A DNA stretch of 64,000 bases from Leptolyngbya sp. PCC 7375 (GTDB lineage Bacteria > Cyanobacteriota > Cyanobacteriia > Phormidesmidales > Phormidesmidaceae). Location: positions 3,768,486 to 3,832,485 of the forward strand of contig NZ_JH993797.1 of NCBI RefSeq assembly GCF_000316115.1, given 5' to 3'. The notes beneath the pieces were generated by a model that worked only from the letters and a program-made list of their open reading frames with translations, was not told where the DNA came from and searched no databases. Every line of letters starts with the position of its first letter. Positions within the stretch are counted from its first letter, which is position 1. A program made the position numbers and the translations under genes. Shown in pieces: positions 37,741 through 44,586 of the stretch.

Positions 37741-38106
37741 ATGAAGCCGTATTCAATTGACTTGCGTCAGAAAATTGTGGACTCCTATCTTGCTGGTGGG
37801 ATTTCTCAACGTAAACTGGCAGAACACTTCAGAGTGGCTCCCAGCTTTGTGGGTAAATTGCTCAAGCAATATCGAGACACGGGCAGTGTTGCCCCCAAAG
37901 TCCGTACTCAGCAAACGCCGCCAAAACTTAATCCAGAGCAATTAGCAATCCTTGAACAATTGGTTCAGGATCATAATGATGCGACCCTAGCAGAATTACG
38001 TGAGCAACTCCATGAAGCCACTGGAGTGCTCATTGGCCGGTCCACTGTAGACCGCATGGTAAAACGGCTGAATTTGACCCTTAAAAAAAACACTACATCC
38101 CAGTGA
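37741..38106 (+). CDS. IS630 transposase, N-terminal frame (orfA)
   Basis: 121 residues holding two helix-turn-helix motifs: the N-terminal IDLRQKIVDSYLAGGISQRK and the later LIGRSTVDRMVKRL, which bind the element's ends. It runs into a run of eight A at 38083-38090 and stops at 38104. The other frame continues the protein without loss, so a +1 shift (or transcript slippage) at the A-run would make the full enzyme. Confidence 0.9.
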   Translation: MKPYSIDLRQKIVDSYLAGGISQRKLAEHFRVAPSFVGKLLKQYRDTGSVAPKVRTQQTPPKLNPEQLAILEQLVQDHNDATLAELREQLHEATGVLIGRSTVDRMVKRLNLTLKKNTTSQ

Positions 38107-38695
38107 AAAGGAAAGCGACCGTGTCCAGCGTAAACGCTTTGAATACTGGCAATTAGTACAGGGGATTCTAGCCAAAGACCTGATTTTTATCGATGAAGCC
38201 GGGATCAATCTGGCGATGACTCGTTTGTTTGCCAGAGCCCCGAAAGGCCAACGAGCCCATGGCCAACGTCCGAGTAAGCGAGGGAAAAATGTGTCGTTAA
38301 TCGGAGCCATTAGCCTGAATCGTGTGATTACTCAACTACCGATTCTGGGGGCAGTCGATGGTATTACCTTCGAGGCCTTCATCTCCCAAAAGCTGGTGCC
38401 CAAGTTATGGCAAGGCGCTTGTGTCATCCTAGACAACTGTAAGATCCATCTCGGAAAAGATGTTGAGGCCATGATTCAAGCGGCTGGAGCTCGACTAATT
38501 TATCTGCCGCCTTACTCTCCTGACTTTTCACCGATTGAAAACTGTTGGTCTAAGATCAAGGCACGGTTACGGGCTATCGGGGCAAGAACCTATCCTGACT
38601 TAGAGCAAGCTCTTGATGACGCCTTTGAAAGTGTGTCATTAGAAGATCTTTTAGGCTGGTTTACACATTGCTGTTATTGCACCTCACTAGACTAG
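38084..38695 (+). CDS. IS630 transposase, catalytic frame (orfB)
   Basis: Read from the A-run this frame gives KKTLHPSEKESDRVQRKRFE and then the DDE catalytic domain: Asp in FIDEAGINL, Asp in VILDNCKIHL, and Glu in YSPDFSPIENCWSKIK. The stop TAG (38693-38695) touches the right inverted repeat. There is no good start of its own before 38216, so expression probably needs frameshifting from orfA. The frame could also be a simple one-base inactivating mutation. Confidence 0.88.
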   Translation, partial: KKTLHPSEKESDRVQRKRFEYWQLVQGILAKDLIFIDEAGINLAMTRLFARAPKGQRAHGQRPSKRGKNVSLIGAISLNRVITQLPILGAVDGITFEAFISQKLVPKLWQGACVILDNCKIHLGKDVEAMIQAAGARLIYLPPYSPDFSPIENCWSKIKARLRAIGARTYPDLEQALDDAFESVSLEDLLGWFTHCCYCTSLD

Positions 38696-41853: not shown

Positions 41854-42831
41854 CTATTGGCAGTTGCTGGGCGGTAAGGAAGGCCCGGCATTTATACGAG
41901 AAAAATCATTGAGTTCCAGGGTAGCGCTAGCGTAATAACGCTTACCTTCATCACCACGGGTACGACGCACCCGCAGAAATGTAGCCGGTCCCCAAAAAGT
42001 AAAGTCTTCGCCCAGGTCACGGGTAACACCATCAAACGGATAGGCTTGCCCGCTCACCGTGTTACCACTGACTCGGCCAGTTACACAGATAGCTTCGCCA
42101 TCAATGTAACTATAGGACCCAATAATCTCATCACCTGTCTTGCGAAAAACAAACAGAACGCCACCTCGACTCAGTAACTCCTGCTCAGAATAAGCCCGAT
42201 CCTCAGCTGCCCCTGACACATACCGATAATTACCATCAGCAAGGCCAGCAATCGTGTCATAAAACGTCGGGGGTGTAGCAGCAGGGCTACCTGTAGAACC
42301 GCTGGGTACTGGACTCCCCAGATCAGGCAATTCTGAACGAGACCGACCACCACTGAGGTCAGGTAGTTCTGCCGAAGCTGACGGGCGCGGCTCAGCACGA
42401 GCCGCTGGACGAGCGACCGACTCAGCACGACAAATCAATGTACTGTTGACTGGCGCAAACCCTTCTGGATCGTCAGAACCAACCAATTCTGGATAGTAAG
42501 TATCACTTGTTAGCAATAGCTGCCGCACCCGATCAATAGACTGATTCGGGAACACCAATGTTCGCTCTGAGGTGAGCACAGCCTCCACGGGACCGGGAAC
42601 AAATGCCCCTAATTGCTCATAAGATACTTCGGTTGTCCCCTCCGCTTCCCTGAGAGTGATAAACGTCCGCAGTCCCAATGGGTTAGGCGCACCCGTACTA
42701 GGGTCATAACTGCAAACAATGATGGGACTAGGCTGTGCTTGCAGTGGTTGGTTAATAGCATCTTTACCTATAACAGTTGCAATGGACGCGAACAATGCTA
42801 ACGGGAATACATGCTTACAGCGACCAACCAT
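41854..42831 (-). CDS. Exported cyanobacterial protein of unknown function
   Basis: About 325 residues from ATG 42831 (MVGRCKHVFPLALFASI), giving a signal peptide cut after QPLQAQP or nearby. The first domain (IIVCSYDPSTGAP to STLICRA) has two Cys that may pair. A Ser/Pro/Gly linker follows, then a second beta-rich domain (GLADGNYRYVSG, GSYSYIDGEAICVTG). I do not recognise a characterised family. Divergent from the kinase gene. An upstream alternative start gives no better signal. Confidence 0.65.
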   Translation of the reverse strand: MVGRCKHVFPLALFASIATVIGKDAINQPLQAQPSPIIVCSYDPSTGAPNPLGLRTFITLREAEGTTEVSYEQLGAFVPGPVEAVLTSERTLVFPNQSIDRVRQLLLTSDTYYPELVGSDDPEGFAPVNSTLICRAESVARPAARAEPRPSASAELPDLSGGRSRSELPDLGSPVPSGSTGSPAATPPTFYDTIAGLADGNYRYVSGAAEDRAYSEQELLSRGGVLFVFRKTGDEIIGSYSYIDGEAICVTGRVSGNTVSGQAYPFDGVTRDLGEDFTFWGPATFLRVRRTRGDEGKRYYASATLELNDFSRINAGPSLPPSNCQ

Positions 42832-43128
42832 GGAAAATAGCTCTCTATAGACAACAGCGCAAACCAATTTTCCAACCAGAACCGTACCTTGAGTTAAGGC
42901 ATAACAGACTGATAAGGACTAAAAGAATTCTATGGGTTAAAGGCCACCTGATAATGTTCAACGGACAATGTTAGTGAATGCATCCGCGCCATTGCTGATT
43001 TAAAGGATGAATCGATCTATAAAACTTGCCACCAGCTTAGATTTGATAGATGTCATCATACCGAGTATCAGCAATGCCCATCCTAAATATAGCCACCTTG
43101 CAGACCTAGACAGAAAAGCCTACTCACC

Positions 43129-44586
43129 ATGAAGCTTGCCCATCGTTTTGAAATACTAGAAGTTCTGGATCAAGGTGGCTATGGCATTACCTATCGGGCA
43201 ATCGACCATCATCAGCCCAGTCACCCCCAATGCGTAATTAAGCAGCTGATCCACACGAGCCCAAAAGTTTTAGGAATGTTTCGCCAAGAGGCCAGCACCT
43301 TAGAAAAAATAGGTGTACATTCTCGTATTCCGAAGCTCTTGGCCTACTTCGATGAGGGCAATAAGTTCTACATCGCTCAAGAAATGATCCATGGCCATGA
43401 CCTGCGGCAAGAAATCAAGACAAGCAAATGGCTAGACGAAAGCTACGTCACAAAATTGTTGAAGGATATTTTGAGTGTGCTGGCATTTGTTCATCAGCAT
43501 CGGACAATTCACCGCGATATTAAGCCAGCCAATCTGATTCGCCAAACAAATAACGGCGATATCTGTCTGATCGATTTTGGGGTGGTCAAAACCCTAAGCA
43601 ACAGTCAGATCGATCACAACGACAAGATGACAACCACGGTCAAAGTTGGGACAGCGGGCTATACTGCTCCCGAACAAGCACGGGGTAAACCCTGCTATGC
43701 CAGTGATCTCTATTCCGTTGGCATGGTAGCTATTGCGGCACTCACCAACATTCATCCACGGCAATTAAATATTCATCCCATCACTCATCAGGTGCAATGG
43801 GCTAATGAGACTATTAGTCCAGCCCTTGAGACGTTTATTAAACGACTCATAGAGCCTAATCCCAAAAACCGCTATAAGACTGCGGTCGAAGCTCTCAAAG
43901 CCCTTGAAAGAACAATTACAGGCATTCGCGTTGGGCAAGATAGCCGACTCCCAACCCATGTTGCAGCAGGCGTCTTACCACCGGTCGATGCTAAACCGGC
44001 AACAAAACCTGTGAAATTAATCCCACCTAAGATTATTTTGAAAGTCATAGGTTTGGTCACAGCAGTTTTGATCGTGCTTGGGTTTGGCGTCAAAGGTTAT
44101 CAATGGGCTGCCTATAACATCAGTCGCCAATGGGATACTGTGACCGCCGCCCCGAGAGGCTATGATGAAGCCAAACCAAGAGAGTTGGTAGCCCTGCTAG
44201 ACGACGGTAGCATTCAAGCCAGGCCTGATATGGTAGACGCTTTTTGGAGCATGGTGGCTGCGGCCAAAAACGAAGATGTCGAACTACTTCCTTTAGCAGG
44301 ATATCTCTCGTTATCTGAACAACGCCGACGGCTTCAAGAGAGAACAGATATAGATGTTAACCAGTGGCTTAAACAAAGTGATTATCATACTGGGTATGCC
44401 GTGGCTATTGGCGACAAAAACGCTGATGAGAGTACTGACTGGGACATTAGTTTTAAGCAGACCGATGGCTATCGCTGGCTGAAGCGATATGCAAAAAACT
44501 ATGGCTTTGAGCTGTCATATCCCCAGGGTAATCTGGCAGGAGAAGATGAACCCTGGCATTGGCGATACAGCAAGGGGCTACGATAA
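43129..44586 (+). CDS. Ser/Thr protein kinase fused to a degenerate VanY-like (M15) domain
   Basis: 485 residues. Residues 6-262 are a complete eukaryotic-type kinase: GGYGITY loop, Lys in VIKQL, catalytic HRDIKPANLI, IDFGVVKT, and TAPEQ. One membrane helix follows at about 301-324 (VIGLVTAVLIVLGFGV). Residues about 350-480 align with D-Ala-D-Ala carboxypeptidases of the VanY/M15 group: RELVALLDDGS, GYLSL, SDYHTGYAVAIGD, and EPWHWRY (Glu474, His477). Three key positions differ from active enzymes: Arg to Leu393 in GYxS, zinc His to Tyr419 in SxH, and zinc Asp to Ala426. The outside domain is probably a peptidoglycan-binding sensor, not an enzyme; that is inference. Confidence 0.88.
   Translation: MKLAHRFEILEVLDQGGYGITYRAIDHHQPSHPQCVIKQLIHTSPKVLGMFRQEASTLEKIGVHSRIPKLLAYFDEGNKFYIAQEMIHGHDLRQEIKTSKWLDESYVTKLLKDILSVLAFVHQHRTIHRDIKPANLIRQTNNGDICLIDFGVVKTLSNSQIDHNDKMTTTVKVGTAGYTAPEQARGKPCYASDLYSVGMVAIAALTNIHPRQLNIHPITHQVQWANETISPALETFIKRLIEPNPKNRYKTAVEALKALERTITGIRVGQDSRLPTHVAAGVLPPVDAKPATKPVKLIPPKIILKVIGLVTAVLIVLGFGVKGYQWAAYNISRQWDTVTAAPRGYDEAKPRELVALLDDGSIQARPDMVDAFWSMVAAAKNEDVELLPLAGYLSLSEQRRRLQERTDIDVNQWLKQSDYHTGYAVAIGDKNADESTDWDISFKQTDGYRWLKRYAKNYGFELSYPQGNLAGEDEPWHWRYSKGLR

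Follow-up and report, generated by a model that had tools for sequence, protein, structure and literature searches.

What might a cyanobacterial Ser/Thr kinase do with an outside domain that descends from a cell-wall carboxypeptidase and whose zinc site is broken? The question is raised by a single gene of a marine cyanobacterium, Leptolyngbya sp. PCC 7375, located within the 64,000-nucleotide stretch of DNA that was analysed as a whole (hereafter called the window). We assign a probability of roughly 0.7 to the reading that its product is a single-pass, receptor-like membrane kinase with a periplasmic pseudoenzyme domain that binds without cutting. Judged from the sequence, this domain is probably kept as a non-cutting sensor of something at the cell wall. 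Cyanobacterial Ser/Thr kinases are many and their inputs are mostly obscure, and an outside half derived from a wall enzyme provides a concrete candidate input in the form of muropeptides or the wall machinery.

The fusion protein and its surroundings

An earlier, sequence-only reading of this locus had described a kinase joined through a membrane helix to a VanY-type domain without catalytic capacity, and this description is borne out by Pfam matches to Pkinase (E 3.2e-36) and VanY (E 4.4e-19), together with a broken zinc site. The parts of the gene are arranged as follows.

43129..44586, + strand: whole fusion gene (kinase, one membrane helix and pseudo-VanY; 485 aa)
43150..43893, + strand: Ser/Thr kinase domain, residues 8-255 (Pfam PF00069, E 3.2e-36)
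43510..43518, + strand: HRD motif, residues 128-130 (motif reading)
43573..43581, + strand: DFG motif, residues 149-151 (NFG in the copy from Adonisia turfae, 96% identical, L092)
44032..44088, + strand: single membrane helix, residues 302-320 (hydropathy scan)
44158..44583, + strand: pseudo-VanY domain derived from M15B peptidases, residues 344-485 (PF02557, profile-profile comparison and structure model)

The VanY match (PF02557, residues 363-481) reaches 69 bits with a cut-off of 25, and a profile-profile comparison (hhalign) of the pseudo-VanYs with active VanYs gives a probability of 100%. Among proteins of the PDB, the relatives found by sequence are the M15 enzymes 4ox3 (YodJ; 2e-7), 4mph and 4mur, which are of the LdcB and VanXY types, and a profile of the family matches 4mph at 1.3e-17. 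In an AlphaFold2 model built from a 14-row alignment, the VanY part has a mean pLDDT of about 76-90 over most of residues 351-460, with helices and strands in the order expected for the family, while the kinase part is poorly modelled. A Foldseek search with the full-length model against the PDB and viral models returned kinases in its top rows and thereby left the VanY half untouched. The assignment of the VanY fold thus comes from sequence homology and from the confident prediction for this half, in which the elements follow the order expected of the family. This agrees with the earlier view that zinc ligands were lost from a domain whose fold was kept.

The top NCBIfam match of the kinase half is a PASTA-kinase model (1.3e-37, far below its cut-off of 450 bits). 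Five Lys/Arg residues precede the membrane segment on the kinase side and two follow it, according to a hydropathy and charge scan. Given this excess of positive charge, we infer a topology in which the kinase is cytosolic and the VanY part is periplasmic.

A divergently transcribed gene (41854-42867, - strand) adjoins the fusion gene in all genus members checked, and its 337-aa product has no Pfam match and is possibly secreted. The nearest relative has a DUF4212/sodium-solute symporter pair on the other side. Synteny around the fusion gene is confined to the genus, and gene order does not point to a partner. Elsewhere in the window (37741-38695), two consecutive ORFs of 121 and 159 aa resemble a frameshifted or split transposase.

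A decayed zinc site

In SpLdcB, zinc is held by His153, Asp160 and His207, the substrate carboxylate is held by Arg120, and Ser151 and Gln125 contact or select the terminal residue (PMC4087270). Spacing and alignment place the three zinc ligands at residues 419, 426 and 477 of the fusion protein, Arg120 at 393, Ser151 at 417 and Gln125 at 398. A residue table confirms the numbering given earlier for Leu393, Tyr419, Ala426, Glu474 and His477.

44245..44247, + strand: Trp373, invariant in 17/17 pseudo-VanYs; active VanYs have varied, mostly polar residues here (E, R, Q)
44305..44307, + strand: Leu393, where the substrate-binding Arg stood (SpLdcB Arg120; alignment, PMC4087270)
44320..44322, + strand: Gln398, equivalent of SpLdcB Gln125 (D-Ala specificity), kept here (alignment, PMC4087270)
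44377..44379, + strand: Ser417, equivalent of SpLdcB Ser151 (ligand contact), kept here (alignment, PMC4087270)
44383..44385, + strand: Tyr419, where the first zinc His (SxH) stood; Tyr in 17/17 members
44404..44406, + strand: Ala426, where the zinc Asp stood (alignment)
44548..44559, + strand: EPWH, with catalytic Glu474 and third zinc ligand His477; kept here, lost in some relatives

The His/Asp/His set of zinc ligands therefore reads Tyr419/Ala426/His477 in the window copy. Comparison with 43 active cyanobacterial VanYs reveals how far this decay extends in the family. Across the active set there is no variation in the zinc His and Asp, the substrate Arg, the SAPPG loop or EPWH. This set was chosen by the SEHxTG motif, a choice that in part guarantees an invariant motif, although the other invariant columns are independent of it. 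At the first zinc ligand, all 17 pseudo-VanYs have Tyr versus His in 43/43 active enzymes. The column of the zinc Asp is more varied (Asp in 8 pseudo copies, Ala in 7, and Val and Asn in 1 each). Zinc itself, the coordinator of the bound carboxylate, has presumably been lost from the pseudo-VanY domain. His420 was considered as a substitute zinc ligand and rejected, as it is kept in only 10/17 copies.

The sequence-only reading had described a selective decay that took the zinc His, the zinc Asp and the Arg of GYRS and spared Glu474 and His477. Across the family the decay goes beyond zinc: the carboxylate-holding Arg is lost in 13 of the 17 pseudo copies (it is kept in 4), and the SAPPG loop has gone from every one. 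Glu474 and His477 are retained in the window copy, but relatives have EPWRW, RPWQW, QPWHW or RPWHW in their place. The catalytic Glu is lost in genomes G035, G026 and G043, and either this residue or the third His is lost in these three and in G270. Just two invariant residues are specific to the pseudo-VanYs, Tyr419 and Trp373, and both are aromatic.

Distribution, descent and constraint

The profile of the dead domain was searched against 390 genomes of the class and 65 genomes of the family. Among the matches listed there are at least 17 pseudo-VanY copies (that of the window and 16 others), all of them cyanobacterial. The carriers are six of the eight genomes of the window's genus, G009 (Vasconcelosia), G011, G270, all seven genomes of the genus labelled g13, and G043 from another order. 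The two genomes of the window's genus without the fusion gene are 70% and 93% complete. The window's close relatives come from Adonisia turfae, Leptothoe kymatousa, Leptolyngbya sp. Heron Island J and L. cf. ectocarpi, and Vasconcelosia minhoensis is more distantly related to the window than those four. Most pseudo copies score at least 160 bits and active VanYs at most 148, although those of G388 and G299 (143 and 141 bits) fall within the active range and were identified by reading their sequences. Another sample, of 386 genomes spread over the phylum, yielded no extra copy at a stricter cut-off. Given this distribution among the genomes searched, the dead domain appears restricted by lineage.

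A kinase half is present in 15 of the 16 other copies; counting the window, 15 kinase halves are complete and one is cut by a contig end (G388). The exception is the G043 copy, in which a different N-terminal half with pentapeptide repeats takes the place of the kinase. This 1175-aa protein (L044 2659-6183) also matches HNH weakly, contains a membrane segment and ends in a dead VanY domain that carries SNYHSGYGLNIGD and RPWHW, and its gene is followed by one for a putative sensor histidine kinase, so named from its sequence (L044 6623-8494). In G270, a second, ordinary-looking kinase gene adjoins the fusion on the same strand (L038 2191-3801 and 4654-6255), and this second kinase groups in the tree with a kinase of G388, apart from the fusion kinases.

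A kinase-VanY fusion with intact zinc ligands would have meant that the window copy is simply an inactive allele. None is found among the matches listed from the 390 class and 65 family genomes, and open frames longer than 450 aa among these matches are dead copies without exception. The inactive-allele interpretation is rejected because Tyr occupies the zinc position in all 17 members and the gene is under purifying selection. One 437-aa frame in G158 was examined as a possible intact fusion and rejected as an ordinary active VanY with an accidental open frame upstream. Active-site motifs are also intact (SEHHTG and EPWHW) in a divergent VanY of G026 (L043 581-1138), which has no GFRS region in its open frame and sits on a very long branch in the tree. 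A viral origin of the pseudo-domain was likewise considered, and no candidate on a viral contig was confirmed. The IMG/VR viral contigs (L099-L102) do carry VanY relatives that are 55-62% identical to a cyanobacterial active VanY, and the SEHHTGxxxD site is intact in the three that were read.

In a tree with active VanYs, the pseudo-VanYs form one side of a branch with support of 99/95. The 15 complete kinase halves do the same (100/97) in a kinase tree whose 19 other members were picked from the closest matches. Since each half forms one clade, the simplest history is a single fusion of an already dead domain, and we infer that zinc loss preceded the fusion. A membrane-anchored cyanobacterial VanY carboxypeptidase lost zinc catalysis (His to Tyr) in the common ancestor. 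In the order just given, a Hanks-type kinase would then have replaced the short cytosolic tail of the dead VanY, which kept its fold core and gained the invariant Trp/Tyr pair. The genome of the window also retains a distinct VanY whose site is intact (L046 4071-4934, G000:C5:2291442-2291888).

Purifying selection acts on both halves in the genus. Within it dN/dS is about 0.1 for each, with several synonymous distances saturated so that the ratios are rough; between the window copy and that of A. turfae it is 0.12 in the kinase and 0.20 in VanY. Tyr419 and Trp373 have remained unchanged across a subtree that totals 11.0 expected substitutions for an average column, in which 14/125 columns are invariant. 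The held Tyr and Trp and the low dN/dS argue that the fusion has not drifted after inactivation.

The kinase half of the window copy has a complete core (K38, E54, D130, N135 and D149) with intact HRD, DFG and APE motifs. It thus lacks the loss of catalytic motifs that defines pseudokinases and could plausibly phosphorylate targets, which accords with the earlier call of an intact kinase. That call does not extend to the family, however, as all five core residues are kept in just 5 of 15 testable copies. The other complete cores are those of G003, G005, G007 (where the Arg of HRD is Leu) and G270 (where the Gly loop is degenerate). Even the A. turfae protein, 96% identical to that of the window, has Asn in DFG, and two or more core residues are lost in G002, G009, G011 and all testable g13 copies. 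With the core incomplete in 10/15, kinase activity cannot be the family-wide reason for retention, and most relatives probably combine a pseudokinase with a pseudopeptidase. The family offers a natural series of stepwise site loss, in the peptidase before diversification and in the kinase several times later, that would permit a direct test of whether signalling requires catalysis.

Possible functions and known relatives

Retention of the fold core and gain of the invariant Trp/Tyr pair suggest that the pseudo-VanY domain most likely binds without cutting. Its ligand might be either a cell-wall peptide or a protein partner. Binding may shift dimerisation or conformation across the single membrane helix and so control the kinase, by analogy with PknB, and relatives with a degenerate kinase half may serve as scaffolds.

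Two more specific accounts of the ligand have about equal odds, each short of even. The first, a narrower form of our preferred explanation, makes the domain a wall sensor, in the manner of PASTA kinases, for peptidoglycan stem peptides or nascent D-Ala-D-Ala ends. Ser417 and Gln398, the D-Ala contacts, are both kept in 8/8 copies from the window's genus, G009 and G270, although these copies have lost the Arg and two of the zinc ligands. Trp476 is kept in 17/17 pseudo-VanYs. In addition, PASTA matches are absent from the fusion protein (Pfam) and from the whole genome of the window, and occur in only 1 of the 39 genomes searched, which supports the proposal that this fusion differs from the PASTA route. 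(That one example, G016:C1:19769-20425 in L108-L110, has three repeats in a 299-aa open frame.) However, the Ser/Gln pair occurs nowhere else as a pair, genus g13 having lost the Gln398 equivalent and mostly the Ser417 equivalent. Furthermore, with the carboxylate Arg gone from most copies, the SAPPG loop from all and zinc presumably lost, most substrate-contact residues have decayed family-wide, and the old cleft may no longer bind a ligand. Stem-peptide binding, as first proposed, is therefore plausible for the window copy, and we treat it as a hypothesis because decay extends beyond zinc, Glu and His vary across the family, and most relatives have an eroded kinase core.

The second account, no less tentative, is that the domain is a protein-protein module that dimerises or holds an envelope enzyme, with its cleft serving as structural filling and the kinase or pseudokinase acting as a scaffold. 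Both pseudo-specific invariants are aromatic, and Trp373 occupies a helix position that is variable and mainly polar in active VanYs, which suggests a new interface. Most members have lost the kinase core but kept the fold-defining parts of both halves, and one (L044) has another cytosolic half. On the other hand, this account leaves the Ser/Gln retention in the genus unexplained, five members have a complete kinase core, and no conserved neighbour beyond the genus indicates a partner. Residual binding of D-Ala ends is possible in the window's genus, but across the family the domain looks more like a fold put to a new use.

Two other explanations fare poorly. It is very improbable that the fusion is en route to loss with both domains drifting: catalytic residues have been lost repeatedly in both halves and two of the eight genus genomes lack the gene, but dN/dS is about 0.1 in both halves, complete copies have open frames of about 490-633 aa, no stop lies within the copies read, and the Trp/Tyr pair is invariant over 11 expected substitutions per column. 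Equally hard to credit is a metallo-enzyme with an altered site of Tyr, Asp or His420 ligands; Tyr ligates zinc in some other metallopeptidases, and Asp426 is kept in the seven g13 copies and G011, with His477 in all of these but G035, but Asp is Ala in the window's genus, His420 is inconstant, and catalytic Glu or the third His is missing from G270, G035, G026 and G043.

Returning to the preferred reading of a binding domain that does not cut, we would tentatively extend it, at less than even odds, to a dead M15 carboxypeptidase that is now a dedicated cyanobacterial wall or periplasmic sensor, with a Trp/Tyr signature, various cytosolic halves, and pseudoenzymes on both sides of the membrane in most carriers. 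If this were true, most carriers would signal by conformation or scaffolding, with catalysis on neither side of the membrane.

In keeping with the earlier impression that the fusion had not been described, searches of the full text of open-access papers find no description of it, and we provisionally regard it as undescribed. A review from 2025 on Ser/Thr phosphorylation in cyanobacteria makes no mention of VanY (PMC11863333). A survey of kinases in 21 cyanobacterial genomes recorded 14 kinds of additional domain (PMC2176072); neither VanY nor a peptidase appears in its text, although cyanobacterial kinases such as cbSTKII share with the fusion an extra C-terminal domain. Bacterial pseudokinase families (GLW, DYD, CP1 and others) resemble the fusion's relatives in their degenerate motifs, and GLW pseudokinases have a membrane helix after the kinase domain, but the window copy has a full kinase core; the 2025 review of these families mentions neither VanY nor a peptidase (PMC12599244).

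Among proteins related by fold, the N-terminal domain of Sonic hedgehog is grouped with these peptidases in the LAS superfamily (PMC4087270), and thus provides a precedent for a metallopeptidase-like fold in signalling. The pseudo-VanY domain differs in having a broken zinc site and in being part of a receptor-like protein. Hedgehog retains its zinc site and is a secreted ligand. The M15B D,D- and L,D-carboxypeptidases (VanY, VanXY and LdcB/YodJ) share a homologous fold and many core residues with the pseudo-VanY domain, which departs from them in always having Tyr for the zinc His, in lacking Asp in 9/17 copies, Arg in 13/17 and the SAPPG loop, and in its fusion to a kinase. Finally, PASTA receptor kinases (PknB/Stk1/PrkC) have the same architecture of a cytosolic Hanks kinase, one helix and a C-terminal outside domain that is likely wall-facing. 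Unlike these receptors, the fusion has a dead M15 fold outside in place of PASTA repeats, and its relatives often have a degenerate kinase half.
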